Source: Bacteroidia bacterium (GTDB lineage: Bacteria > Bacteroidota > Bacteroidia > CAIKAF01). Taken from it: DNA of 64,000 bases. Made by a program: the position numbers and the translations under genes. Below, in pieces: positions 47,261-61,815 of this stretch (position 1 is its first letter; every line of letters starts with the position of its first letter). The notes beneath the pieces are model-generated. The model was not told the origin of the DNA. It made no database searches and was given only the letters and a program-made list of their open reading frames with translations. The stretch spans positions 124,001-188,000 of the forward strand of contig JACVCJ010000001.1 in the NCBI GenBank assembly GCA_016742095.1. Direction: 5' to 3'.

Positions 47261-49519
47261 ATGAAAAAACTTTTTTTAACCTTATTCGGAACGGGGCTTT
47301 TATTTCTTTCTACCCGGGAAGCAAATGCCCAGATCGGTCCTCCGTGTAATGCAGCCTCTCCGGCCTGTGCCTCACAGGGACTCAGTTTCGGCAACTCTAC
47401 CGGCGTTCCCAGCCTGGGGACCATCGGCTGCCTGGGTTCTTCGCCGAACCCAACCTTCTTCTTCATGGAGATCGCAGCCCCCGGTAATATCGATATTACC
47501 ATCAACCAGACCAATACTACCGGCGGCGGTATCGACGTAGACTTTGCCCTCTGGGGGCCGTTCACGTCGGTAAGCTCGGGTTGTAACGCCATTACGGCCA
47601 ACCCCGGCGGGACCATCGACTGTAGTTTCTCGGCCGCCGCTACCGAATATGCCAATATCGTAGGCGGACAAACCGGTCAGATCTATATCCTGCTGCTCAC
47701 GAACTATTCGAACCAGGCAGGTACCATCAGTTTTGTGCAGACCGGTGGTAACGGAAGTACCAACTGCGGTATCCTGGCCACGGCCTCCAACAACGGCCCC
47801 ATCTGCGAACTGCAGACCCTGCAGCTTTTCGTGGATACGCCGAATACCGTGGGTCCCTGGCTGTTCCAGTGGACAGGCCCCAACGGTTTTACCTCCAGCC
47901 TGCAGAACCCCACCATCCCCGGCGCTACGGCTGCTGCCAGCGGTACCTACCAGGTGATCGTGACCAATGCCATTACATTTGAATCCGATACAAGTCTTAC
48001 CAATGCTACCGTAAACCTGGTGCCTGCCGCTCCGGGCTGGACCATGCCTCCGGTATGTCTCGGCCAGCAGTTCTGCCTGAGCCCCGATCCTCCGCTGATC
48101 CCGGGTGCCACCTATAACTGGACGGCCCAGGTGGGCGCGGGTTCGCTCAACTCCACGGCCGTGCCGTACTGTAATATCGGTACCGCGCAATGGAACGGCG
48201 TAAACATGTCGCTTACGGTCACCGTTAACGGCTGTACAAGCCCGGCAACCGCGCATCCGATCACATTGAACCAGCCGCCTACCATGACCATCACGGGACC
48301 GCCCCAGGGTTGCGAAGGCGTGCCGGTGACCTTAACGGCAAATCCTTCCGGGCTCGATACCTATGCATGGACCCCGGGCGGAGCCTCCACCGAGACCATC
48401 CAGGCCACACCGGGTACTATCTATACCGTAACCGGCACCCTGAACGGCTGTTCGGGAACTTCGGCACCCTTTAACCTCGGTGTGATCCCGAACCCGCTGA
48501 ACGTATCCGGTAACGCTCCTTTCTGCAGCGATACCCAGATCGAACTGCGCGCCAGCCCGGGTAAAGCTTCCTATATCTGGAACGGTGTAACCACTACCGA
48601 CTCCATTTACGTGGTTTCTGCCTCCGATGCCCCGCAGGTTACCCTGCAGATCGTAAGCGTGGACGGCTGCGTACGTAACGATACATTCGACATTACCGTA
48701 TACAATGCCCCGCACGCGGCCTATTCGCCGAATACCGTATGCGACGGAACTCTCATCCAGTTCAATGACGAAACTTCTCTGGACTCTGTGGAGCACTCTT
48801 CCGGCACCGGTTTCCTGTCTTCTTTCTTCTGGGATTTCGGTTCCAGCGGCAGCACCTCTACCGATCAGAACCCGAGCTTCCAGTACCCCGGTCCGGGCAC
48901 CTACAACATTACCTATATGGTAGTAACCGCTGAAGGTTGCGACGATACCATACAGAAGCCGTTCACCGTGTACAAAAAACCGGAAGCGAACTTTGTAGCG
49001 ATACCCTACTGCTTCGGTCAGGTACAGTTCTCAGATACTACCGCTGTAGGCGACACTACGCTGTCAACCTGGCTGTGGACATTCAGCAACGGTGCCGAGA
49101 ACGAGAACGTACCGGTGTTCGATAAGACCTTTACAGGTACCGATAACCAGGTGGAAGTAACCCTGGCCGTAAGCGATAACCACGGCTGTACCGATGATAC
49201 CACGATGATCGTGCCGATCACGGCTACGCCTGATTTCAATAAACTGGCCAACGTGATCACTCCCGGCGACGGCGGACTGAACGATTACATCGACCTGGGT
49301 CCGGACGGACCGATCTACGATCAGTGTTACGACTACTCCATACAGTTCTTTAACCGTTGGGGACAGAAAGTATACGAGATCACCAATTCTTCGCAGAAAT
49401 TCGAAGGACTGAACAGCTCCGGCGGCAAACTGGAATCCGGCGTATACTATTATGTAATTATGGCCGACAGTAAAAAACGCCACAGCGGCACCGTAACGAT
49501 CTTCAGAGCAGGCAGCTAA
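47261..49519 (+). CDS. large T9SS type B (gliding-motility C-terminal-like) secreted protein
   Basis: 752 residues. Signal peptide 1-23 (ANA|Q). The N-terminal domain is Cys-rich with many Gly/Asn/Thr (about 24-175), then Ig-like and SprB-like segments (PGWTMPPVCLGQQFCLSPDP and similar). A PKD domain follows (about 490-570; FFWDFGSSGSTSTDQNPSFQ), then a second PKD-like segment (QVEVTLAVSDNHGCTDDTT). The type B sorting domain starts ANVITPGDGGLNDYIDLG and has QFFNRWGQKVYEI. The consensus is TPNGDG; here it reads TPGDGG. Likely a surface adhesin or filament. The next gene is a paralogue. Confidence 0.9.
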   Translation: MKKLFLTLFGTGLLFLSTREANAQIGPPCNAASPACASQGLSFGNSTGVPSLGTIGCLGSSPNPTFFFMEIAAPGNIDITINQTNTTGGGIDVDFALWGPFTSVSSGCNAITANPGGTIDCSFSAAATEYANIVGGQTGQIYILLLTNYSNQAGTISFVQTGGNGSTNCGILATASNNGPICELQTLQLFVDTPNTVGPWLFQWTGPNGFTSSLQNPTIPGATAAASGTYQVIVTNAITFESDTSLTNATVNLVPAAPGWTMPPVCLGQQFCLSPDPPLIPGATYNWTAQVGAGSLNSTAVPYCNIGTAQWNGVNMSLTVTVNGCTSPATAHPITLNQPPTMTITGPPQGCEGVPVTLTANPSGLDTYAWTPGGASTETIQATPGTIYTVTGTLNGCSGTSAPFNLGVIPNPLNVSGNAPFCSDTQIELRASPGKASYIWNGVTTTDSIYVVSASDAPQVTLQIVSVDGCVRNDTFDITVYNAPHAAYSPNTVCDGTLIQFNDETSLDSVEHSSGTGFLSSFFWDFGSSGSTSTDQNPSFQYPGPGTYNITYMVVTAEGCDDTIQKPFTVYKKPEANFVAIPYCFGQVQFSDTTAVGDTTLSTWLWTFSNGAENENVPVFDKTFTGTDNQVEVTLAVSDNHGCTDDTTMIVPITATPDFNKLANVITPGDGGLNDYIDLGPDGPIYDQCYDYSIQFFNRWGQKVYEITNSSQKFEGLNSSGGKLESGVYYYVIMADSKKRHSGTVTIFRAGS

Positions 49520-49550
49520 GGCTGTTTGAAACGATCATATTATTTTCAGT

Positions 49551-49586
49551 AACGGATTACTCCTCACAGGGTAATCCGTTTTTTTT
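49551..49586 (+). terminator. terminator between the two type-B cargo genes
   Basis: AACGGATTAC (49551-49560), a 10-nt loop, GTAATCCGTT (49571-49580), then T to 49586. A perfect 10-bp stem, so the paralogues are transcribed separately. Confidence 0.92.
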
Positions 49587-49630
49587 GTCGAATGCCTGAA
49601 TAAATAATTAGGTCGTTCGTGAAAATTTGT

Positions 49631-49638
49631 TAAATTTG
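49631..49638 (+). promoter_or_regulatory. -7 box of the second type-B cargo gene
   Basis: A perfect TAAATTTG, 21 nt before the ATG at 49660. No good TTTG lies 17-21 nt upstream. Confidence 0.5.
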
Positions 49639-49659
49639 CATAGTTATAAGATAATAGGT

Positions 49660-51960
49660 ATGAAAAAATTTCTGCTCTCTTTATTCACTCTGCCTTTGTT
49701 TACTCTGAATACGGAAGCACAATGTCTTTCCGGAGGGTGTTTCGTAGATATTACTGCCAGTGCCACTACCATTTGCCAGGGCCAGTCCACAACGCTTATC
49801 GCGGACTCGGGTTCTGCGCTTCTGTTCAATACGTTCAACAGTTCCACGCTGGGTGCCGGCTGGGTGACCAATAACAACGTGGTTAATTTTAACAGTCCCT
49901 GCGGCCCCTCGCTGGACGGTACACCGCACGTATGGTTCGGGAATGCTGCCGGTGCGGGTACACGTCTGCTTCAGACGGTTGATTTTAACGTAATGGGCGG
50001 TGGTACCATTTCTTTCGACCTGCGTTTTGCCATACAGGGTCAGGCCAGTCCCTGCGAAGGGCCGGATGAAGCCGATGAAGGTGTATCCCTGCAGTACTCC
50101 ACAGACGGTGGTGTTACCTGGGGAGATATTATCTATTTCAGCCCTTCCGGGAACCTGCTGCCTTCCAACCCGGGAGGGAACGGGGCGGTAGCTCCGGCGC
50201 TTTCTGCGTTCAATACCTGGGCCAACTATTCCTTTGCCATTCCGCCTGCGGCTATTACGCCATGTACGCGTTTCCGCTGGTTTCAGCCTTTCAATACATC
50301 TGCCACGAACGACCACTGGGGCATCGACAATGTATCCATTGTATCGGCTGCCCCGCCTTCCGGTCCTTCCAACTTTGTATGGCTCGATAACGGCCAGCCG
50401 GTAACCGGTCCGCGTGTGGTATCACCGACCGTTACCACTTCCTACATTGCACAGTGGGCGAATCCTACCGATACCTGCCGCGATACCATTACCATTATCG
50501 TGAATCCGATACCTGCCGCTCCTTCGTTTACCGTACCTCCGGTTTGCCAGGGACAGCAGTTCAGCCTGGCCCCGAATCCGCTGCTCCCCGGAGCTACCTA
50601 TTACTGGACCGGTTCCAACGGGGTTGCTTCCAATGCCATGCCCTACCAGAACATAGGCTCCTCGGCCTGGAACAACGTAACCATGAACCTGGTGGTGGTA
50701 GCCAACGGCTGTACCAGTACGGCGGCCAGTAATGTGATACAGGTTACGCCGACACCGGTATTGTCTATTACGGGCCTCAACCAGGAATGTGAAGGCGTGC
50801 CGGTTCAGCTTACCGCGAATCCTGCGGGACTCGACAGCTTTTTATGGTCGAGCGGCGCTACCGGGCAGGTCGTTTCGGTACTTCCCGGCCAGTCATACAC
50901 GGTAACCGGTTACCAGAACGGATGTCCGGGTACCTCGCAGCCCTTTAACGTGGCCATTGTACCCAATCCCCTTACCGTAGCGGGTAACCAGCCCTTCTGC
51001 GAGAACAGGACCATTACGCTTACGGCTACCGGCGGTAAGCAGACCTATACCTGGAACGGTACAACGGGTGCCGATTCTACCTATGTGGTATCCTCAGACG
51101 ATGCCCCGCATGTGATCCTTACCGTGGTAAGTCCCAACGGCTGTTCACGTACGGATACCATCGATCTTACCATATACCCCGTGCCGAATGCCTTCTTTAC
51201 ACCGGGCAGCATCTGCGACGGAGAAAATATCCAGTTCGATAACGTAACCACGCTCGATTCTTCCGGCGGCGCTGCCATTGCCGGTTATTTCTGGAATTTC
51301 GGCGACGGTACCAACAGTACGGATACGGAGCCTTCTAAACTGTTCAATACACACGGCACCTACAATATTTCACTGGTGGCTGTGAGCAGCCAGGGCTGTG
51401 CCGATACGGCCACGGTTCCGTTCAAGGTGTACAAAAAACCGGAAGCCAATTTCGTATTTGCCCCGTATTGCTTCGGAGCAGTTATGTTCAGCGACAGCAC
51501 GGCCCTGGGCGATACAACGGTATCTGCCTGGCTGTGGACCTTCGATAACGGCGCCGAAAATGAAACGGTGGCCACATTCGAAAAGGAATTCGACGGCAAC
51601 AGTGTGAACGTAACCCTGCAGGTAACCGACTACAACGGTTGCATCGACGATACAACGATCAATGTACCGGTAATGGCAACCCCCGATTTTACCGAACTGC
51701 CCAATGTGATCACCCCGAACGGTGACCTGATGAATGACGAGATAAAACTGCTGCCGATCTTTGACGAATGTTACGATTATTCGGTACAGTTCTTTAACCG
51801 CTGGGGCCAGAAAGTGTTCGAGATCAACAATTCTTCACAGGCCTTTAACGGTGTCAGTTCCGCCGGCACCAAGCTGGAAGACGGCGTGTACTTCTATGTA
51901 CTCGTAGCCAACGGCGAGAAGCGTTACAGCGGGTCTGTGACCATATTTACAGGAAGCTAA
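49660..51960 (+). CDS. large T9SS type B secreted protein, paralogue of 47261
   Basis: 766 residues from the ATG at 49660 (MKKFLLSLFTLPLFTLNTEA). Signal cleavage is near EAQ|C. The N-terminal domain differs from its neighbour: a reelin/MAM-like segment with FNSSTLGAGWVTNNNVVNFN, WFGNAAGAGTRLLQTVDF and HWGIDNVSIVSA. From about residue 300 the two proteins match closely (PPVCQGQQFSLAPNP, CEGVPVQLTANPAGLDSF, PKD near FWNFGDGTNSTDTEPSK). The type B sorting domain starts NVITPNGDLMNDEIKLL. So a shared C-terminal stalk carries two unlike heads. A strong terminator follows. Confidence 0.92.
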   Translation: MKKFLLSLFTLPLFTLNTEAQCLSGGCFVDITASATTICQGQSTTLIADSGSALLFNTFNSSTLGAGWVTNNNVVNFNSPCGPSLDGTPHVWFGNAAGAGTRLLQTVDFNVMGGGTISFDLRFAIQGQASPCEGPDEADEGVSLQYSTDGGVTWGDIIYFSPSGNLLPSNPGGNGAVAPALSAFNTWANYSFAIPPAAITPCTRFRWFQPFNTSATNDHWGIDNVSIVSAAPPSGPSNFVWLDNGQPVTGPRVVSPTVTTSYIAQWANPTDTCRDTITIIVNPIPAAPSFTVPPVCQGQQFSLAPNPLLPGATYYWTGSNGVASNAMPYQNIGSSAWNNVTMNLVVVANGCTSTAASNVIQVTPTPVLSITGLNQECEGVPVQLTANPAGLDSFLWSSGATGQVVSVLPGQSYTVTGYQNGCPGTSQPFNVAIVPNPLTVAGNQPFCENRTITLTATGGKQTYTWNGTTGADSTYVVSSDDAPHVILTVVSPNGCSRTDTIDLTIYPVPNAFFTPGSICDGENIQFDNVTTLDSSGGAAIAGYFWNFGDGTNSTDTEPSKLFNTHGTYNISLVAVSSQGCADTATVPFKVYKKPEANFVFAPYCFGAVMFSDSTALGDTTVSAWLWTFDNGAENETVATFEKEFDGNSVNVTLQVTDYNGCIDDTTINVPVMATPDFTELPNVITPNGDLMNDEIKLLPIFDECYDYSVQFFNRWGQKVFEINNSSQAFNGVSSAGTKLEDGVYFYVLVANGEKRYSGSVTIFTGS

Positions 51961-51987
51961 ACCACCATTTTGATAAATAATTAACAG

Positions 51988-52019
51988 AGCGGAAGAACAG
52001 AGATTCTTCCGCTTTTTTT
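51988..52019 (+). terminator. terminator after the second type-B cargo gene
   Basis: AGCGGAAGAA (51988-51997), loop CAGAGA, TTCTTCCGCT (52004-52013), then T to 52019. The last T and following bases form the next promoter's -7 box. Confidence 0.92.
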
Positions 52020-52026
52020 ATTTTTG
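52019..52026 (+). promoter_or_regulatory. -7 box of the metal-module genes
   Basis: A perfect TATTTTTG directly after the terminator and only 4 nt before the GTG at 52031, giving a leaderless or nearly leaderless mRNA. The -33 position lies in the terminator stem and has no TTTG. Confidence 0.45.
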
Positions 52027-52030
52027 TAGC

Positions 52031-52489
52031 GTGAAGACCGTTATGTCCATACTGCTTTCCTCCCTGTTGCTCCTTTCGGGGTTCAGCAACGGGCCGGCAT
52101 TGCATTACTGCTATTCCAGCGGTAATGTACGGGCAGATATCAGCCGTGTGCTTTCCGGCGATAAGGACGACGTGCACAGCTCCTGCAGCGAAGCGGCCAC
52201 AGATGCCTGCTGCGCGGTGAAAAAAGCCGGACAGGAACGCACGGAAACCGGTGGCTGCTGCGACGATTTTGAGTTTAAGGTAGAGCTGAAGGATTACTCC
52301 TTTTCACAGTGGGCAAACCCGGTACCGGCGCCTGCCGTACTGCAGCTTTTTATCATACCTTTCTTTTCCGTTTTTGCGGCTCCGCAGCATATTGCAGAAG
52401 AAAGCCTGCATTACAGCTATGCAGATCCGGGCATACTATGGGCGGAGAAACTTCCGCTATTCATAGAGTACGCCGTATTCCGTATTTAA
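52031..52489 (+). CDS. HYC_CC_PP-like cysteine-rich exported protein
   Basis: 152 residues from the GTG at 52031 (MKTVMSILLSSLLLLSGFSN); an ATG at 52043 would lose the basic n-region. After a signal-like hydrophobic start come HYC (about 26-28), then a Cys cluster with two CC pairs (DACCAVKKAGQ and TGGCCDDFEFKVEL). A hydrophobic stretch PVPAPAVLQLFIIPFFSVFA follows. This H-Y-C, C-C, P-P order is that of the HYC_CC_PP family, small Bacteroidota proteins found beside TonB receptors. Cys and His suggest metal binding (inference). The downstream genes are a TonB receptor and an HMA lipoprotein. Confidence 0.82.
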   Translation: MKTVMSILLSSLLLLSGFSNGPALHYCYSSGNVRADISRVLSGDKDDVHSSCSEAATDACCAVKKAGQERTETGGCCDDFEFKVELKDYSFSQWANPVPAPAVLQLFIIPFFSVFAAPQHIAEESLHYSYADPGILWAEKLPLFIEYAVFRI

Positions 52490-52495
52490 AACCGG

Positions 52496-52537
52496 TGCTC
52501 CTCAGGGATCTTATGCTCCCCCGGAGGGAGTGCACTC
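52496..52537 (+). promoter_or_regulatory. GC-rich hairpin before the TonB receptor
   Basis: CTCCC, loop CCGGA, GGGAG in the middle of the 67-nt gap, with flanking GTGC and GCAC able to lengthen the stem with a bulge. No T-run. It might moderate expression of the receptor relative to the Cys-rich protein; this is inference only. Confidence 0.3.
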
Positions 52538-52556
52538 AGTTTTAAAATATGGAAAA

Positions 52557-54758
52557 ATGAAAATCAGACTTATCTTTATTTTACTGTTCGGTATAACGGT
52601 AAAACTCTGGTCACAACAGACGATCAGCGGTTTTGTACACGATAAGGACCGGACACCGCTTATTAATGTTCAGGTATACTGGAAACTGGCCCGCAACGGG
52701 GTGGTGACCGATACCGCAGGGATGTTTTCCATCCCTCTTTCGGCAAAAGAGGCCGATACCCTCGTATTTCGCATGGTGGGTTACCGGACGGAGTATTTTC
52801 AGCTGGAAGCCGGCGAATACGATTTTGAACTTTCGGCAGACAATACCCTGAAAGGCGCCACCATCGACGGCTCACAGCCCGGCATGGTCATGACCGAAAG
52901 TGTAGGCATACAATCGGTGATCACGGCGGCGGGCCTGCGCAAATCGGCCTGTTGCAACCTGGCAGAGGCCTTTGAGACCAATGGCGCTGTGGACGTATCG
53001 TTCAGCGATGCCATCACGGGAGCCAAACAGATACGCCTGCTGGGCCTCGACGGCAAATATGTACCTATTACCTTTGAAGGACTGCCCAACCTGCGTGGCC
53101 TGGCGTCCCTCTACGGGCTCAGTTATATCCCCGGGCCTTTTATCGAGAATATTTCCGTGTCCAAAGGGACCGGCTCGGTTACCCTGGGCTATGAAAGTAT
53201 GACGGGGCAGATCAATGTGGAATACAAAAAGCCCTTCGAAATGGAGAGGCTGCATGTGAACGGGTACTTCAACTCCATGACCCGCAGCGAACTGAACCTG
53301 GTAGCTTCGTACCGCTTTAAAAAGGGCTGGAGCACGGCGCTGTTCGCGCACGGCAATATCTTTCGCATGCATACCGACCGCAACAGGGACGGTTTCCTGG
53401 ATATGCCCTTCTCACACCAGGTGAACCTGAGCAACCGCTGGGTATATGCCAGTGAAAAGACCGAATTCCAGGCCGGTATCAAATATGTATGGGATGTAAA
53501 GGAAGGCGGACAGGGCGCCTATTACCGGCATCAGGGGCACAATGATTCAAACAGCTATTACCGTTTCTTCCTGAAGACACACCGCGCCGAAGCCTGGCTC
53601 AAGAACGGCTTTTTCTGGAAGAACAAACCCTATAAATCGCTGGCCTATACCATGACCTTTATTTACCACGATCAGCGCGGCAGCTACGGTCTGCGTCCCT
53701 ATACCGGACGGCAGACCACCGGGTACTTCAACAGTATTTACCAGAGCATCATCGTAAATACGAACCATAAGTTCAAGACCGGTGTAAGTTTCCTGTACGA
53801 TAAGGTAGACGAACGTTTTGCCACAGCCGGTACGGCCCGCACGGAATATGTGCCCGGGGTGTACGGAGAGTATACCTTCAGCCACCGCGAAAAGCTGGAC
53901 ATCATTGCCGGCCTGCGTTACGATTATCACAACCTGTATAAACACCAGGTAACCCCGCGCCTGCAGCTGAAAGTTACACCGGTGAAGGATCTCTCGCTGA
54001 AGCTGAGCGGAGGCCGCGGTTTCCGGAGTCCGAACGTATTTGCCGACAATGCGTTCCTGCTGGTATCGAACCGCCAGGTGGTGATACCGGCCACACTGAA
54101 GCCCGAAGTGTCCTGGAACGGGGGCGGAGGAGCCGTATACCGTTTCCAGAAGGGAAAAGTGAGTGGTAGTATCGGCGCCGATTATTTTTATACCTGGTTC
54201 CAGAACCAGCTGGTCCCGAATATGGAAACGGCCGGTCTGGTGGCTTTCGAAAATGTGGGCGGAGCTTCGTATGCCCATGCCTTCCAGCTCGATTTTATGC
54301 TGGAACCGGTAAAACGCCTGCAGTTTCACCTGAATGCCAAATGGAACGACGTACGTTCGGTATACAACGGCCAGCGTAAGGCCGTACCGTTCATCCCGGT
54401 GTACAAAGGGCTGCTGAACGTAGCCTACAGCACGGGAGGGCCCAACCCCTGGAGCTTTGACGCCACGGTGCAGTTGAACGGTCCGGCCCGTCTGCCGCTG
54501 ACCTACAACCCGGGAACGGGGGAGGCCAACCGCACACGATCGCCCGTGTACGCACTGCTTTTTGCACAGGTAAGCAAAAAATTCCGTAACTGGGAAGTGT
54601 ATATCGGGGGCGAGAACCTTACGGATTACCGTCAGCCCAATCCTGTGATCGATCCGCAGAACCCCGGCAGCGCCTCTTTTGACGCCTCACAGGTATGGGC
54701 GCCCGTGTTCGGGGCCATGGCCTACGGCGGCTTCCGCTATACCCTTAAATACAAGTAA
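52557..54758 (+). CDS. TonB-dependent receptor of the metal-handling module
   Basis: 733 residues from the ATG at 52557 (MKIRLIFILLFGITVKLWSQ). Signal cleavage is after about residue 20. A CarboxypepD_reg-like domain follows (ISGFVHDKDRTPLINVQVYW). The plug has a rare Cys pair in GLRKSACCNLAEAFETNGAV, then IRLLGLDGKYVPITFEGLPN and GTGSVTLGYESMTGQINVEY. The barrel runs to the end, FRYTLKYK. Flanking HYC_CC_PP-like and HMA-domain genes suggest that the ligand is a metal such as copper, or a metal complex. That is inference from context and the Cys pair; metal receptors and siderophore receptors cannot be told apart by sequence alone. Confidence 0.9.
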   Translation: MKIRLIFILLFGITVKLWSQQTISGFVHDKDRTPLINVQVYWKLARNGVVTDTAGMFSIPLSAKEADTLVFRMVGYRTEYFQLEAGEYDFELSADNTLKGATIDGSQPGMVMTESVGIQSVITAAGLRKSACCNLAEAFETNGAVDVSFSDAITGAKQIRLLGLDGKYVPITFEGLPNLRGLASLYGLSYIPGPFIENISVSKGTGSVTLGYESMTGQINVEYKKPFEMERLHVNGYFNSMTRSELNLVASYRFKKGWSTALFAHGNIFRMHTDRNRDGFLDMPFSHQVNLSNRWVYASEKTEFQAGIKYVWDVKEGGQGAYYRHQGHNDSNSYYRFFLKTHRAEAWLKNGFFWKNKPYKSLAYTMTFIYHDQRGSYGLRPYTGRQTTGYFNSIYQSIIVNTNHKFKTGVSFLYDKVDERFATAGTARTEYVPGVYGEYTFSHREKLDIIAGLRYDYHNLYKHQVTPRLQLKVTPVKDLSLKLSGGRGFRSPNVFADNAFLLVSNRQVVIPATLKPEVSWNGGGGAVYRFQKGKVSGSIGADYFYTWFQNQLVPNMETAGLVAFENVGGASYAHAFQLDFMLEPVKRLQFHLNAKWNDVRSVYNGQRKAVPFIPVYKGLLNVAYSTGGPNPWSFDATVQLNGPARLPLTYNPGTGEANRTRSPVYALLFAQVSKKFRNWEVYIGGENLTDYRQPNPVIDPQNPGSASFDASQVWAPVFGAMAYGGFRYTLKYK

Positions 54759-54784
54759 AACTTTAATCGTACATTTGAAAAGAT

Positions 54785-55144
54785 ATGAGAACCATCAGAA
54801 ATAGCATTCCGGCCTTCCTGCTCCTGGCAGGCGTATTGTTTGTATTTGCCTGCAAAAGTTCCGAATCGGTTGCGGGCGGTACCTATGTATCGGCGGTGAT
54901 CACCACCAGTGCCGAATGCGATATGTGTAAGGCCAAGATCGAAGGCGTGGTAGGCGAGATGAAGGGCGTGCGCTCGGCGAAGGTAGACCTGGCCAGCAAA
55001 ACACTTTCGGTGCGTTACAGCAAGGACAAGATCAGCCTGGACGAGATCCGCAAGGAAGTGACCGGCCTGGGTTACCGTGCAGACCAGATGGCACCCAGCG
55101 CTACGGCCTACCAGGCATTGCCGGCCTGCTGCAAAAAGAAATAG
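54785..55144 (+). CDS. HMA-domain lipoprotein (metal-binding)
   Basis: 119 residues. A lipoprotein signal ends VFAC (Cys23). A heavy-metal-associated domain fills about 34-105: VSAVITTSAECDMCKAKIEG carries the CxxC metal site, then VGEMKGVRSAKVDLASKTLS, then IRKEVTGLGYRADQ. The C-terminus adds another pair, LPACCKKK. HMA domains carry Cu(I), Zn or Hg; being lipid-anchored in the envelope, it could take metal from the TonB receptor or shield against it. Twenty-six nt after the receptor; probably the same operon. Confidence 0.9.
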   Translation: MRTIRNSIPAFLLLAGVLFVFACKSSESVAGGTYVSAVITTSAECDMCKAKIEGVVGEMKGVRSAKVDLASKTLSVRYSKDKISLDEIRKEVTGLGYRADQMAPSATAYQALPACCKKK

Positions 55145-55201
55145 GAAGGCTGACGGGCAGAATTTAACGGGACATGTGCCGCAAAAACCGTCTGAAAAAC
55201 G

Positions 55202-55209
55202 CATATTTG
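55202..55209 (+). promoter_or_regulatory. punA -7 box
   Basis: CATATTTG (one mismatch to TAnnTTTG), ending 15 nt before the ATG at 55225. It supports that start over an in-frame ATG at 55174. No clear -33. Confidence 0.4.
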
Positions 55210-55224
55210 CAAAAAATCACACAC

Positions 55225-56055
55225 ATGTTCAATTGTAATCTTGCCCTGATCGAAGAGACCGCCGCGTTCATCAAAACCAAAACGGACATCCGCCCGCTGG
55301 TGGGTGTAGTACTGGGCTCCGGCCTGGGCGGTGTGGTTTCCAGGATAGAGATACAGCATACGATACCGTATTCAGATATTCCGAATTTCCCCCAGAGTAC
55401 CGTAATGGGTCACGGGGGAAATTTACTTTTCGGCCACTGGAACGGCGTGCCCGTATGCGTGATGCAGGGCCGTTTCCACTACTATGAAGGTTACCCGATA
55501 CAGCAGGTGACCTTCCCGATACGGGTAATGAAACTACTGGGCGTGGAAACCCTGATGGTGAGCAATGCTGCGGGCGGACTGAACCCGGCCCAGCACATCG
55601 GGGAACTGATGATCATCAACGACCACATCAATATGCAGCCCGAACACCCGCTGCGCGGCCGTAACGAAGAACGTATGGGCCCGCGTTTCCCCGATATGAG
55701 CGAGGTGTACGATGCCGCACTGATCGCTCTCTGTAAAGAAAAGGCCGTTGCCATGGGCCTGCACGTGAGCGAAGGCGTGTATGTGGGTGTGCAGGGGCCT
55801 ACCTTTGAAAGCCCTGCGGAATACCGTATGTTCCGTCTGCTCGGCGGCGACGCGGTGGGCATGAGCACCGTGCCCGAAATTATCGTAGCGCGTCATATGC
55901 AGATGCGTTGTTTTGCCATGAGCGTGATCACCGACCTGGGCGTGGACGGAAAGATCGTAGAGATATCGCATGACGATGTAGTGAAGGCAGCGAACGAGGC
56001 CGGCGAAAAAATGACGGAGCTGTTCGGAAAAATGCTGGAAGAAATAGGGAAATAA
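55225..56055 (+). CDS. punA: purine nucleoside phosphorylase (trimeric type)
   Basis: 276 residues from the ATG at 55225 (MFNCNLALIEETAAFIKTKT). Phosphate-binding VVLGSGLGGVV (about 28-38), STVMGHGGNLLFGHW, GRFHYYEGYP, the central LMVSNAAGGLNP, and GVYVGVQGPTFESPAEY are the motifs of the guanosine/inosine-type trimeric PNP. It cleaves purine nucleosides with phosphate for base salvage. It is placed after the metal module without functional link and probably has its own promoter. Confidence 0.95.
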   Translation: MFNCNLALIEETAAFIKTKTDIRPLVGVVLGSGLGGVVSRIEIQHTIPYSDIPNFPQSTVMGHGGNLLFGHWNGVPVCVMQGRFHYYEGYPIQQVTFPIRVMKLLGVETLMVSNAAGGLNPAQHIGELMIINDHINMQPEHPLRGRNEERMGPRFPDMSEVYDAALIALCKEKAVAMGLHVSEGVYVGVQGPTFESPAEYRMFRLLGGDAVGMSTVPEIIVARHMQMRCFAMSVITDLGVDGKIVEISHDDVVKAANEAGEKMTELFGKMLEEIGK

Positions 56056-56310: not shown

Positions 56311-58815
56311 ATGAGAAGATATTACTATCTCTTCCTGCTTTTTTGTGTATGGAACGGAACCTCTGTCTATGCGCAACTGAGCATCACTGCAACCGGTGTG
56401 AACTTCACACAGGACTTTAACTCCATGGGTGGCTCCACGGGAACGATTCCCGGCGGCTTCCGTGCGGGTAATCCTTCCAATGCTTCCGACGACCATAATG
56501 CGAATGGTACAACAACCAGCCAGGCAACTACAACATTTTCCAGTACCCAGACCGGCGGCTGTTACAACATAGGTGTGGCCAACAACACCAGTGACCGTGC
56601 CCTGGGTTTCCTGAACAGCAGCTCTTTTACCACAGGTAAGGCAATTACGCTGCAGATCACAAACAATACAGGTGTGCCGATCAATGACATCACGCTCAGC
56701 TGGAACTATGAAAAATACCGTCCCGGTAACCGCGAGTGGACCTGGAACTTTTTTCACGGAGCAACATCTCTTCCCAATACGGCATTGGCCGCAGGTAACC
56801 AGACCTACCCTACCGACGGTAGCAATGGTTCTACCATTACGCCTCCGCTAAGTGTTTCTAAATCGGTGACCATTTCCGGTCTGAACATCGCCCCGGGCGC
56901 ATCGTACTATTTCCGCTGGAAACTGAACGGTAACGGCGGTAGCTCCAACGGGCAGGCCCTGGCCATCGACGATTTCGTGATCAACTGTACCAGTAACGTT
57001 TCTCCGTGCCCTCCGGGTACGCCCTCCGTTACCCTGGGTAACGATACGGCTTTCTGTGCCGGAACACCTTTTTCCCTGCTGCTGAATGCCGGTAATGCCG
57101 GTGCTTCTTTCGACTGGAACAACGGTGCATCCACCTCACAGACCTTCACCGCCACCACACCGGGAACCTATATCGTAAAAGTAACCGACGGCAGCGGCTG
57201 TATCGGCCGCGATACCCTCGTGATCGTTTCTAAACCCCTGCCCGTAATTCCGCTCAGCAATACCGCTTCATACTGTGCCGGTACGCCTTTCAGCATGACC
57301 CTGGATGCCGGCAACCCCGGTGCCGCCTACGACTGGGAAAACGGTGCCGCCAATACACAAACCTACACCGTAACCACTGCCGGAACTTATTCCGTAGTAG
57401 TTACGGGAACAAACGGCTGCGTGGCAAGTGATTCGATCGTGATTACACAGAACCCGCTGCCGGTAGTGAACATCGGGGTGGATACCTCTTTCTGCGCCGG
57501 ATCTTCGTTCTTCCGTATCTATGATGCCGGCAACCCGGGATCTACCTACAGCTGGAACGGCGGAGCCTTCACCGGTCAGACCTTCATCGCCAACCAGGCA
57601 GATACCTATACCGTAACGGTAACCACACCGGCGCTCTGTTCTGCCAGCGATACGGTGATCGTTACCGAAGTAGCCCTGCCGGTAGTGAACCTGGGCGCGG
57701 ATACGGCTTACTGCGCCGGGACGCCTTTCTCCTGGACCCTGGATGCCGGTAATGCAGGCGCCGCCTTCGACTGGAACAACGGTGCCGATTCTGTACAAAC
57801 CTTTGTGGTAAGCGGTCCGGGTAACTGGTTCGTGACCGTAACGGATTCGAACAGCTGTGTAAATTCAGATTCTGTATTTGTTACGGAACATGCACTGCCG
57901 GTAGTAACACTGCCTGCTGATACGGCTTACTGTGCCGGAACGCCTTTCTCCTGGACCCTGGATGCCGGTAATGCCGGAGCTGCTTTCGACTGGAACAACG
58001 GTGCCGATTCTGTACAGACCTTTGTGGTCAGCAGCGCCGGCAACTGGTTTGTAACGGTAACCGATTCCAACAGCTGCGTAAATTCAGATTCGGTGATCGT
58101 AACCGAAAACCCACTGCCTGTCGTAGACCTGGGTAACGATACCTCTTACTGTGCAGGCGTTGCCTTTGCCTGGGCCATCAATGCCGGTAATCCCGGAGCT
58201 ACGTACAGCTGGAACAACGGTGCCGACTCTGCGGCCGTATTTACTGCAACTACCGCCGGCACCTACTCGGTTGTGGTTACCGATGTGAACGGCTGTGTGA
58301 ATGCAGACTCTGTGATCGTGACGGAAAATCCGCTGCCGGTACTGGACCTGGGCCCGGATGTGGTTACACCGGACCAGAATGCGGTACTGACCGGTCCTTC
58401 GGGCTTTGCCGCCTACAGCTGGAGCAACGGCCAGAGCACACAGAATATTTCTGTATCGCAAACGGGCACCTACACGCTCACCGTAACGGATGCCAACGGC
58501 TGTACGGCCAGCGATAACATCGGGGTGCTGATCACCTTTTCGAACGAAGAAACGGAACTGGCCCTGGACGCTACGGTGTACCCGAACCCGTCGAACGGTT
58601 ACCTGCACATCCGCCTCAACGAAACGCTGAAAGGCGCTGCCGATGTGGCGCTCTTCAACATGGCGGGTCAGTCGGTGTACAACAGCCGTATTCAGCAGGG
58701 TGACCCGGAGGCTGAAGTTACCCTGGACCTGGCGCACCTGGCCGAAGGGATGTACGTCCTGCACCTGAACGGTGATGCCAAAACACGGACCTTTAAAATT
58801 ATCATACGGAAATAA
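56311..58815 (+). CDS. T9SS type A secreted repeat protein (six 73-residue repeats)
   Basis: 834 residues. Signal peptide about 1-21 (VYA|Q). The N-terminal beta domain (about 22-236; LSITATGVNFTQDFNSMGGS to ALAIDDFVINC) resembles the sandwich found before extracellular nucleases. Then come six repeats of exactly 73 codons, residues 237-674, and a seventh, incomplete one to about 745. Each has LPVV.L..DT.YCAGTPF, an N-G-A core and a C..SDS.IVTE end with one conserved Cys pair, an Ig-like SprB-type fold. Repeats 4 and 5 are nearly identical. The T9SS type A domain starts ATVYPNPSNGYLHIRLN. Probably a surface stalk. Confidence 0.93.
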   Translation: MRRYYYLFLLFCVWNGTSVYAQLSITATGVNFTQDFNSMGGSTGTIPGGFRAGNPSNASDDHNANGTTTSQATTTFSSTQTGGCYNIGVANNTSDRALGFLNSSSFTTGKAITLQITNNTGVPINDITLSWNYEKYRPGNREWTWNFFHGATSLPNTALAAGNQTYPTDGSNGSTITPPLSVSKSVTISGLNIAPGASYYFRWKLNGNGGSSNGQALAIDDFVINCTSNVSPCPPGTPSVTLGNDTAFCAGTPFSLLLNAGNAGASFDWNNGASTSQTFTATTPGTYIVKVTDGSGCIGRDTLVIVSKPLPVIPLSNTASYCAGTPFSMTLDAGNPGAAYDWENGAANTQTYTVTTAGTYSVVVTGTNGCVASDSIVITQNPLPVVNIGVDTSFCAGSSFFRIYDAGNPGSTYSWNGGAFTGQTFIANQADTYTVTVTTPALCSASDTVIVTEVALPVVNLGADTAYCAGTPFSWTLDAGNAGAAFDWNNGADSVQTFVVSGPGNWFVTVTDSNSCVNSDSVFVTEHALPVVTLPADTAYCAGTPFSWTLDAGNAGAAFDWNNGADSVQTFVVSSAGNWFVTVTDSNSCVNSDSVIVTENPLPVVDLGNDTSYCAGVAFAWAINAGNPGATYSWNNGADSAAVFTATTAGTYSVVVTDVNGCVNADSVIVTENPLPVLDLGPDVVTPDQNAVLTGPSGFAAYSWSNGQSTQNISVSQTGTYTLTVTDANGCTASDNIGVLITFSNEETELALDATVYPNPSNGYLHIRLNETLKGAADVALFNMAGQSVYNSRIQQGDPEAEVTLDLAHLAEGMYVLHLNGDAKTRTFKIIIRK
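57019..58332 (+). repeat. six direct repeats of 219 bp
   Basis: Units start at 57019, 57238, 57457, 57676, 57895 and 58114; all are exactly 219 bp (73 codons). Units 57676-57894 and 57895-58113 are closest, with many identical runs, which indicates recent duplication. A diverged seventh unit begins at 58333. The register never breaks, so copy number can change without frameshift. Confidence 0.9.
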
Positions 58816-58837
58816 GACCCATTTCCCCATGCTTTTT

Positions 58838-58873
58838 AAAAGGCTGTTCCGCTGCACGCTGGGCAGCCTTTTT
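58838..58873 (+). terminator. terminator after the repeat protein
   Basis: AAAAGGCTG (58838-58846), a 17-nt loop, CAGCCTTTTT (58864-58873). The stem continues into the A and T runs. Confidence 0.85.
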
Positions 58874-58931
58874 CATTTGACAGACTTGAAAAAAAACACA
58901 GCAAAAATGTATGGACGAAGTATTCTGCAAA

Positions 58932-58939
58932 TACCTTTG
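58932..58939 (+). promoter_or_regulatory. orphan -7 box
   Basis: A perfect TACCTTTG with no -33 at the right distance. Transcription would start near 58943, ahead of the small reading frame ending at 59160. Confidence 0.4.
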
Positions 58940-58986
58940 TATGTCAGATCTTATCGGTCTGGGCTGCTCTACTGCTAAGCTGCTGG

Positions 58987-59160
58987 TTGTGGAAAGTGGG
59001 CGAAATAGCAGTAAATAATGAAGAGCGATATAAGTTGTCGGATGAAGTACTGATCACCCTGCTGGCAACCACTACACTCAATGTGATCGGTATCATCACG
59101 ATCGTTATGACCGATCTGTTCAACGGAAGATCCGAAGAAGAAAATAAAGACAAGGATTAA
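58987..59160 (+). CDS. possible small membrane protein (57 codons, TTG start) or gene remnant
   Basis: Read back from the TAA at 59160, the frame gives YKLSDEVLITLLATTTLNVI, then GIITIVMTDLFNG and a charged tail. There is one clear membrane segment; the L-S-D-E-V-L..TTT.NV.G pattern looks like a real conserved C-terminus, not noise. The only start after the -7 box at 58932 is the TTG at 58987, preceded by more coding-like hydrophobic sequence, so it may be the end of a longer, broken gene. Function unknown. It converges on the type-B gene at 59167. Confidence 0.4.
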   Translation: MWKVGEIAVNNEERYKLSDEVLITLLATTTLNVIGIITIVMTDLFNGRSEEENKDKD

Positions 59161-59166
59161 GATCAT

Positions 59167-61815
59167 TTACTCCCGCACCACGGTAACGGCCGTATTGTGA
59201 AAGGCCGTGCCCGTCTTCAGTACCAGGAAATAAACACCGGAACTGATGTGGTCGGGATTCCATTCGGCCGGCAGTCCTTCGGAACGGAATACCGAAATGC
59301 CCCAGCGGTTAAACACCTGTATTTCGGTGCAATCTGTAAATCCCGGCGGAACAAGGGCTTTCCATATATCGTTGTTCCCGTCGCCATTGGGCGTAATAAT
59401 ATTCGGAAGCTGTATCTGCAGGTAATCTTTCAGTTCCTTGGCCGTAAGCGTCTGGCCCGCCGTATCGGTACACTGCTGGTTATAAGCCACCAGGTTCAGC
59501 GTATAATTGCCGGAGTAAGGCACGGTAATTTGCACGGAACTGCCGCTGCCGAGCGCATCGGGCAGGTGGAACCACTGAATGCTGTCGTTGCTGGCAGAGA
59601 TATCGTTAAAGGTCATCACCAGCCCTTCGCAGGCAGGGAATACGTCGGCTTCTTCAAAAGCGGCTTCCGGGTTGGGAATACTTTCAATGTTCAGCAGCAG
59701 GGTATCGGTACACAGACCCTCGTAATCCAGTACGATCTCGTAACTTAGCGTACTGCTTACCAGTATTTCGGCCGTACATCCATTCAGTTCCTGCGGCAGG
59801 GGATCCCAGCTGCACTGTACATTCGGTCCGGAAACAGGGGTATATACGAAAAGTGTATGTTCACAAAGGCTGGTGTCGATATCGTCTTTGGGTACGTCGG
59901 GCACGCGTATACGCAGACTGTTGGTGTCGGAGCAACCATGTATATCCGTAAACTCCGTAATGTAATCGAAATTCTGCGGCGGATAAAAAATATGACTGCC
60001 CGGTATGTCCGGCATATTGTACAGGTTGGGCTGTACGCTCAGTTGTAACGAATCCGGATACAGCAGCGTAATACTATCGCCGAAACACACTATATATTCA
60101 GCGGCCCAGGGATTCAGTGGCAGGGGCAGCACCTCCACATAAATACTGTCGGTGCGTGTACAGGTAAGCGGATCGGAAACAGTGAGCGTGTAATAGCCCG
60201 ACTGTTGTGCCAGGGCATACACGGTAGGGCCATTCAGCGGCGGAATAAGTCCCGGACCGCTCCAGGTATAACTGCTGAAGCCCGTATTGCTGCAGCTCAG
60301 CAGGATGGTGTCTCTGAAACAGGCGCTGTCGGCCGCGCTCAGGCTGAATTGAGGCTCGGGCAGTATCACCAGGTCATGCTGGGCGGTATCGCTGTTGCAT
60401 ACGCCCTGCCAGATAAGTTGTACAGAACCGTTGCCTGTATTGTTCCACTGAGTGCCTGCATCCGGCAGTGTGGCCGGGGTGGTAAGCGTTCCGTTCTGCA
60501 CGCTCCAGAGAAAAGTACCCGCCGGCACATTGGAACCGAATGTGAGCATTTCGCCGAGACACACCGAATCGGGGCCGCTGATCTCTACTTCAAAGGGCAG
60601 ACTGTCTACCTGGAACGAAAGTATATCGAAGTCGTTCTTGGGGAGGCAGCCGTCGTCCACGGCCTGTATGTACAGGTTGTAGGGGAAGGGCGAAGCCTGT
60701 CCGCAAACCGGGGCAAAGCATACGTTCAGTATGGTTTCGGAGGCCGTACTGCTCAGTACGCTGATCTGGGGCGGGTTCGGCAGATCGAGGATCGGTCCGC
60801 CGAACGTATAACTGAGGCTGTCTCCGTCGGCATCGCTCAGCGTTACCTGTACGCATACCTCTTCTTCTTCGTGTACGTTCACCAGGGTGCTGCCGCTTTG
60901 CAGCTGTACCTGCGGCGGATCGTTCTGCGGACATTGCGTAACGGCGATCTGCAGCTCGCGCCGCGTTTTGTTCAGCAGCTGGTTGTTACGAAATTCGTTC
61001 ACCTCGAGGGCGATCACGAAACTGCCGGGAATACTGCCTTTAATGCGGGTGAGTCCGTTGGACGCGTTCAGGAATACATATCCGCCCGGTCCGAAGGGCT
61101 GCGTGGGCGAAAATCCCGCTGCGTAAGTTACCAGCGGCGGCTCATAGCCCAGCGGATTGGGCGGCGGCGGCGCCGTATTGGTGGGAATGCCGTAACCGGC
61201 GTAGGGATGCACCCAGTTGTAAATAAGCAGGTCGCCATCCGGATCGATGGCCGTGTTGGGAAGGGTGAGCGTATCGCCGATGCATACCAGCGGAAGTGCG
61301 GCCGGTTCAAACACAGGCGTACTGTTGGGCTGTGCGGTAGGCGGAATGGTACACACAAAGCTTTCGGACTGCAGGGAAGGGCCGTTCAGGCTGATGACCT
61401 GGCTGCTGCGGCAGCAACGTTCGTAAAAGAGTATATACCCCACCGCAGAGGCCGGCAGCAGCAGCGTATCCCGGTAAATGCCCTCGTACATGCAGATGCT
61501 GAAGGGTACGATACAGCCGGGAGGCAGCATCGGTTCTACTTTACGTGTCTGGCTGAGTTGCAGGGTAAGTGTCTGTAACAGCGGTTTGAACTCGCCGCTT
61601 ACATTTTCGTAGAGTCCGGCGCTCAGCGGACTTTCCGGGAAAGGGATCTCTGAGCCGGATGTGCAGTCGGTATAGGTTGTGAGTTGTATGGCGTAGCGGA
61701 ACTGTCCGTTCTGCATGCCCAGGTAGGTATAGCCGAAATCGCCGCCCAGCAGGTGACTGGCCGAAGCCAGGCCCGAACCCAGGAAAAAGAACAGGAGTAA
61801 AAGGCGGTATTTCAT
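59167..61815 (-). CDS. T9SS type B secreted protein with SprB/PKD-like domains
   Basis: 882 residues. Signal peptide 1-19 (ASA|S). The mature start HLLGGDFGYTYLGMQNGQFR is the family opening of many Bacteroidota gliding-associated proteins that continue with TTYTDC and YERCCRS. Cadherin/PKD-like segments follow (ALPLVCIGDTLTLPNTAIDP, then VCVQVTLSDADGDSLSYTFG), then several Cys-pair Ig-like modules. The type B sorting domain starts QLPNIITPNGDGNNDIWKAL and has QVFNRWGISVFRS. Its ATG lies 1 nt after the stop of the upstream gene at 61817, so translation is coupled. Confidence 0.93.
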   Translation of the reverse strand: MKYRLLLLFFFLGSGLASASHLLGGDFGYTYLGMQNGQFRYAIQLTTYTDCTSGSEIPFPESPLSAGLYENVSGEFKPLLQTLTLQLSQTRKVEPMLPPGCIVPFSICMYEGIYRDTLLLPASAVGYILFYERCCRSSQVISLNGPSLQSESFVCTIPPTAQPNSTPVFEPAALPLVCIGDTLTLPNTAIDPDGDLLIYNWVHPYAGYGIPTNTAPPPPNPLGYEPPLVTYAAGFSPTQPFGPGGYVFLNASNGLTRIKGSIPGSFVIALEVNEFRNNQLLNKTRRELQIAVTQCPQNDPPQVQLQSGSTLVNVHEEEEVCVQVTLSDADGDSLSYTFGGPILDLPNPPQISVLSSTASETILNVCFAPVCGQASPFPYNLYIQAVDDGCLPKNDFDILSFQVDSLPFEVEISGPDSVCLGEMLTFGSNVPAGTFLWSVQNGTLTTPATLPDAGTQWNNTGNGSVQLIWQGVCNSDTAQHDLVILPEPQFSLSAADSACFRDTILLSCSNTGFSSYTWSGPGLIPPLNGPTVYALAQQSGYYTLTVSDPLTCTRTDSIYVEVLPLPLNPWAAEYIVCFGDSITLLYPDSLQLSVQPNLYNMPDIPGSHIFYPPQNFDYITEFTDIHGCSDTNSLRIRVPDVPKDDIDTSLCEHTLFVYTPVSGPNVQCSWDPLPQELNGCTAEILVSSTLSYEIVLDYEGLCTDTLLLNIESIPNPEAAFEEADVFPACEGLVMTFNDISASNDSIQWFHLPDALGSGSSVQITVPYSGNYTLNLVAYNQQCTDTAGQTLTAKELKDYLQIQLPNIITPNGDGNNDIWKALVPPGFTDCTEIQVFNRWGISVFRSEGLPAEWNPDHISSGVYFLVLKTGTAFHNTAVTVVRE

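Follow-up and report, generated by a model that had tools for sequence, protein, structure and literature searches.

To our knowledge, little has been established about copper uptake by Gram-negative bacteria. Among the described systems, OprC of Pseudomonas aeruginosa is a TonB-dependent receptor that, in the portion of its published account drawn on here, imports copper using a plug cysteine (Cys143, ~70 residues past the Ton box) within a site made up of CxxxM in the plug and HxM in the barrel; that portion describes neither an HMA nor a HYC partner (PMC8610252). Two further TonB-dependent receptors, CrtA (BfrG) of Bordetella (PMC12914433) and TccA of Caulobacter (PMC12617631), have been linked to copper supply for oxidases; both are from Proteobacteria and have histidine-based sites, and the parts of these reports considered here mention no conserved dicysteine and no HMA fusion. 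Copper transporters of the CrtA type are marked by a conserved E/Q/H/R/W/Y ligand site and an invariant His. A survey of copper genes in Bizionia and the Flavobacteriaceae gives, in the sections used, an OprC-like protein as the sole uptake receptor alongside other TonB proteins lacking the OprC motif, and the module presented here is not described in those sections (PMC11213822). Copper-linked TonB receptors as such are already known; what is unusual here is the dicysteine in the plug together with an attached chaperone. We found no paper describing this module; most subscription literature lay outside the search, so an earlier description is possible.

The locus lies in a window of 64,000 nucleotides, the whole stretch of DNA that was analysed, whose ORF listing places three plus-strand ORFs (the trio) at 52031-52489, 52557-54758 and 54785-55144. 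They encode, in that order, a small cysteine-rich protein resembling the HYC_CC_PP family, a TonB-dependent receptor and an HMA-domain protein. A preliminary description had read them as a three-part envelope metal module, and the same-strand genes and all the cysteine pairs that it named are indeed present where it placed them. On the plus strand, a hairpin at 51986-52015 (a 12-pair stem then a T run, matched to the consensus only) is terminator-like and would close the upstream gene, setting the trio apart from it, and TATTTTTG at 52019-52026, just 5' of the trio on the same strand, is a candidate Bacteroidota-type -7 promoter element (TAnnTTTG). Given these two features, the trio is probably a transcription unit of its own. 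Of 122 loci, 64 had a TAnnTTTG box ahead of the HYC ORF by no more than 50 nt, against 5.4 expected from shuffles. When the DNA 5' of HYC was searched for a palindromic operator common to the loci, A/T-rich words alone came up, with no conserved operator. The flanks of the trio (47261-51960 and 56311-61815) encode large surface proteins whose C-termini, on sequence impression alone, look gliding-type or T9SS-like; beside the trio, at 55174-56055, sits a gene resembling purine nucleoside phosphorylase.

A receptor search across 296 Bacteroidota genomes gave 129 analysed loci in two score classes: class A, with 77 high-scoring loci, one per genome, and class B, with 52 low-scoring loci, the split being made by score alone. 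The CC pair in the plug was present in 77/77 class A receptors and 0/52 of class B, a count made on score-selected loci from which those found by the ACC peptide pattern were excluded. Adjacent HYC genes occurred at 59/77 class A loci against 0/52 (Fisher p 6e-21, kinship ignored), and an adjacent or fused HMA domain at 55/77 against 0/52 (Fisher p 1e-18, kinship likewise ignored). Both partners accompanied 44 of the 77 class A receptors and at least one accompanied 70, leaving 7 with neither adjacent. At the level of whole genomes, the HYC family was present in 54/77 with a class A receptor and 37/219 others (odds ratio 11.5, p 3e-17). The preliminary expectation that the trio would recur beyond this genome, and the plug pair together with both neighbours, was thus borne out, class A having CC and partners and class B lacking all three. 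Gene order was HYC-receptor-HMA at 25 loci and HYC-HMA-receptor at 15, besides the fusions; this variety argues against merely passive inheritance of a single arrangement. On this comparative evidence, evolution has kept the three genes together as a unit across Bacteroidota. As judged from conservation, the named thiol motifs are also beyond chance, since the plug CC is class-specific, the HMA CxxC and CC are kept and the four HYC cysteines are invariant.

The module is also present in Parabacteroides distasonis, an anaerobe from the human gut (UNS60_RS10415, 10420 and 10425). We considered and rejected a mobile-element reading, as relatives were present in just 4 of 72,556 plasmid records, none of them mobilizable; that the Parabacteroides record represents a plasmid-borne module is disfavoured by its chromosomal-type genes ftsK, trxB and metH.

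The second gene of the trio encodes a class A receptor of 733 aa (52557-54758, plus strand; the ORF is listed from an upstream GTG at 52530) with a CarboxypepD_reg-like domain, plug and barrel by Pfam (Plug 31.6 bits, TonB barrel 77.5 bits, both above cut-off). Its AlphaFold model has a pLDDT of 90.7, and Foldseek matched solved TonB receptors, OprC among them (E 2.7e-23). The protein fits the TonB-dependent receptor superfamily, with a plug domain within a large beta-barrel, and would accordingly be predicted to transport its substrate on TonB energy. No specific NCBIfam receptor family was passed by this receptor or by two class A relatives. It has two cysteines in all, Cys132 and Cys133, adjacent in RKSACCNLAEAF (ACCNLAEAF; 52950-52955, plus strand), and the ACC triplet does not vary among 60 aligned class A receptors, whose mean column identity is 38%. 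Profile alignment to Cir, a colicin receptor of solved structure, puts the pair opposite KPVQNL, just before the first plug helix, which begins at residue 135 in the AlphaFold model, and about 20-25 residues ahead of the apical loop. Whereas OprC has an apical plug cysteine and the CxxxM-HxM site, the window receptor has neither, and the idea that the dicysteine is an OprC copper site was rejected for want of CxxxM and because of its different plug position. By alignment and helix start, set against OprC Cys143 and the apical-loop CxVC of class B, the class A pair occupies a site of its own. From there it may face the periplasm, and the HMA domain could then come into contact with it. A side branch of class A (L075, L076, L078 and L079) has a third plug cysteine (ACCDLAGCF) and no adjoining HYC or HMA gene.

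The nearest receptor relatives are the class B paralogues, one of which is in the window's own genome (G000:C26:8560-10665, L117). They share a thiol pair in the plug, but it is a CxVC at about the position of the apical loop (51/52), and they have no HYC or HMA neighbour. What lies beside them instead is a DtxR/MntR-type regulator (26/52, mostly on the opposite strand), a thioredoxin-like gene (27/52) or Nramp (5/52), and class B (L085-L137) would apparently comprise undescribed manganese or iron receptors.

The HMA protein (54785-55144, plus strand) has 119 aa and a clear HMA domain (Pfam HMA, E = 8.1e-13; 49 bits against a cut-off of 24.8) containing the metal-binding motif CDMC (54917-54928, plus strand); CxxC was found in 95/95 neighbouring HMA proteins. 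A C-terminal dicysteine follows on the same strand (ALPACCKKK, 55127-55132), with a downstream CC in 86 of the 95. Its earlier designation as a lipoprotein is apt for the window copy, which has a lipoprotein-like signal (VFAC), and not for the family, in which the lipobox pattern was seen in 3/95 and the signals are mostly of signal-peptidase-I type. The window protein fell below the curated NCBIfam cut-off for every named copper-chaperone family, with 42.2 bits of 62 for TIGR00003 and 48.2 of 91 and 42.2 of 95 for the CopZ models, and it scored 17.2 bits against 92.55 for MerP. With CopZ-type copper chaperones it shares the HMA fold and CxxC; the module protein differs from these in being exported, in its extra C-terminal CC and in being fused to the receptor in some lineages. 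Elsewhere, the window's genome encodes another exported HMA protein bearing a C-terminal CC (CDHCMQCESC ... LDACCKRR; L243:1378-1734, G000:C12), on a short contig of 4.6 kb where no receptor was seen.

In Chitinophagaceae and their relatives, and in a separate family (f4), an HMA domain with an LPxCC tail forms the N-terminal part of the receptor itself, and the f4 fusion proteins examined have two tandem HMA domains. The LPxCC motif was counted in 22 rows of fused receptors. In a quick maximum likelihood tree of the receptors with SH-aLRT support, the fusions form two groups with well-supported unfused clades between them, one group lying beside receptors with HMA immediately upstream and the other beside receptors with HMA immediately downstream. 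On the tree, the fused state changes four times; however, L187 and L207, labelled 'none', have an LPxCC tail too and probably represent fusions as well, so that a cautious reading is of two separate origins rather than four. Fusion of HMA to the receptor N-terminus argues strongly for a functional link between the two. The N-terminal domain of a TonB receptor lies on the periplasmic side, and the fused HMA domain would therefore be periplasmic.

The first gene of the trio (52031-52489, plus strand) encodes a protein with a signal-like N-terminal segment, a HYC motif (52103-52111) and two CC pairs (52208-52213 and 52256-52261), all on the plus strand; GTG 52031 may be the wrong start, with ATG at 52043 as the alternative. 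The family HYC_CC_PP (NCBIfam NF047658) is named after its motifs alone, and we found no paper that mentions it. The window protein scores 30.1 bits against a curated cut-off of 28 (29.5 in the genome search with the neighbours in frame) and lacks the PP near the C-terminus that is present in 103 of 122 relatives. The earlier likening to HYC_CC_PP therefore stands for the family score, HYC and both CC pairs and fails for the PP motif; as this motif is not universal and the whole-family score is over the cut-off, we keep the protein as a marginal member. Across 98 aligned HYC proteins, the four cysteines alone are invariant, with a mean column identity of 11%. The AlphaFold model (pLDDT 63.4) was too low in confidence for a fold search.

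As to which metal is handled, the gene neighbourhoods of the module's relatives are informative. In Dyadobacter, Runella, Siphonobacter and Spirosoma (Cytophagales), the trio is accompanied by copper genes, including CopA, CopZ-like HMA proteins, an HMA-AraC regulator, HMBD proteins and a DUF326 protein; the Dyadobacter CopA scores 615.9 bits against a TIGR01511 cut-off of 397, and the Siphonobacter DUF326 protein matches the Csp1 copper-storage family below cut-off. Among 124 extra directon neighbours in named genomes, the Pfam families that recurred were AraC-type regulators (10), HMA (9) and HMBD (6), with three occurrences apiece for copper P-ATPase, multicopper oxidase and DUF3347. AraC-type regulators whose N-terminal part is an HMA-like domain (NMVCDRC) turn up repeatedly next to the module in Cytophagales (L139:8842-9450, L150:8236-8790 and others like them) and are likely to be a copper sensor family. 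We also inspected 20 regions with HYC genes apart from class A receptors: HYC lies beside CopA and/or CopZ-like genes at L218-L220 and beside CusA/CzcA-family pumps at L222-L227, L233 and L234, some of the pumps carrying an AIG...VEN motif, and further copies are in islands with HMA and Met/His-rich proteins. The pumps directly beside HYC_CC_PP genes suggest that the family may be a general copper-island protein in Bacteroidota. In Haliscomenobacter, a CusA/CzcA pump lies near a receptor relative. It should be considered that copper genes adjoin the trio in part of the tree only and are lacking at many loci, including the window, where no further copper gene adjoins the trio and the genome's CopA is ~38 kb away.

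Since both the operon neighbours and the surroundings of receptor-distant HYC genes are copper genes, copper is most probably the metal of the module, and the same genomic context supports a place in copper homeostasis for both the HYC protein and the operon's wider neighbours. Silver would be indistinguishable from copper on these neighbourhoods, which do not favour zinc or mercury. The preliminary proposal of a thiophilic metal such as copper thus gains weight from trio conservation, the invariant plug pair, the HMA fusion and the copper-gene neighbourhoods. COX1 is present in 283/296 genomes, too many for co-occurrence with heme-copper oxidases to inform on whether the module supplies them with copper. 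Such supply is suggested not to be the whole explanation, because the anaerobe P. distasonis and a class A genome without a heme-copper oxidase match (G238) have the module.

Our preferred reading, to which we give a probability of about 0.6, is that these three genes serve copper handling at the outer membrane of Bacteroidota, combining TonB-driven uptake with thiol hand-off. The receptor would bring copper, as the ion or a small chelate, into the periplasm on TonB energy, and the plug dicysteine, ahead of the first plug helix, would hold Cu(I) transiently during passage. A periplasmic HMA domain, whether free, lipid-anchored or tethered by fusion, would accept the copper through its CxxC and C-terminal CC and hand it onward, and the HYC protein would act as an exported cysteine-rich copper buffer or acceptor, preventing damage from released copper. 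We infer uptake rather than detoxification, as well as the thiol relay, the redox state, the sequence in which copper changes hands and what HYC does; the parts may form one continuous relay across the envelope. More tentatively, and at somewhat less than even odds, Cu(I) could go straight from the plug dicysteine to an HMA domain that is either docked or covalently fused, never being free in the periplasm. If true, metallochaperone hand-off would be an integral part of a TonB receptor, an arrangement of which we found no description.

The main rival is defence against copper or silver, because the most obvious neighbours are exporters, which could be equally compatible with a detoxification role. 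HYC and HMA would then trap excess periplasmic copper, while the receptor would sense copper or import a protectant (iron, for instance, or a chelator that aids recovery). CopA, CusA-type pumps, multicopper oxidase and Csp-like storage are all among the neighbours, and there is a precedent in the Caulobacter iron receptor CciT, which gives copper resistance (PMC12004943). We nevertheless regard defence as unlikely, if a serious contender, in that the invariant plug pair and the HMA fusion make metal handling by the receptor itself likely, and an efflux gene is missing nearby at many loci. It is less probable still that the module handles a different soft metal or a metalloid (Zn, Hg, Cd or As): the window HMA domain does match MerP-like and ZntA-like models below cut-off, and downstream of the fused locus L187 are ORFs that are ArsR-/ArsM-type by the look of their openings only, but the MerP score is 17.2 bits against 92.6, the exporters lying close to HYC and class A genes pass the copper-type P-ATPase cut-off, and the directon neighbours show no recurrent mer, zur or cad cluster. 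A vicinal CC can make a strained disulfide, and the CxxC of class B goes with the thioredoxin-like neighbours counted above, but we consider it very improbable that the cysteines are structural or redox-active in an ordinary organic-nutrient receptor with the small proteins as folding helpers, given that one partner is an HMA metal-binding domain and the other belongs to a family linked to copper genes and that thioredoxin-like genes are absent from the recurring class A neighbours.

Taking copper uptake with thiol hand-off as the preferred reading, the module offers a probable role for the motif-named HYC_CC_PP family, whose copper neighbourhood is documented here, and the natural fusion suggests that an outer-membrane receptor may pass metal on to a chaperone domain. 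The described copper receptors that we found are from Proteobacteria, and the module, spread over 77 of the 296 sampled Bacteroidota genomes and extending to Parabacteroides of the human gut, would provide a copper route for a whole phylum.
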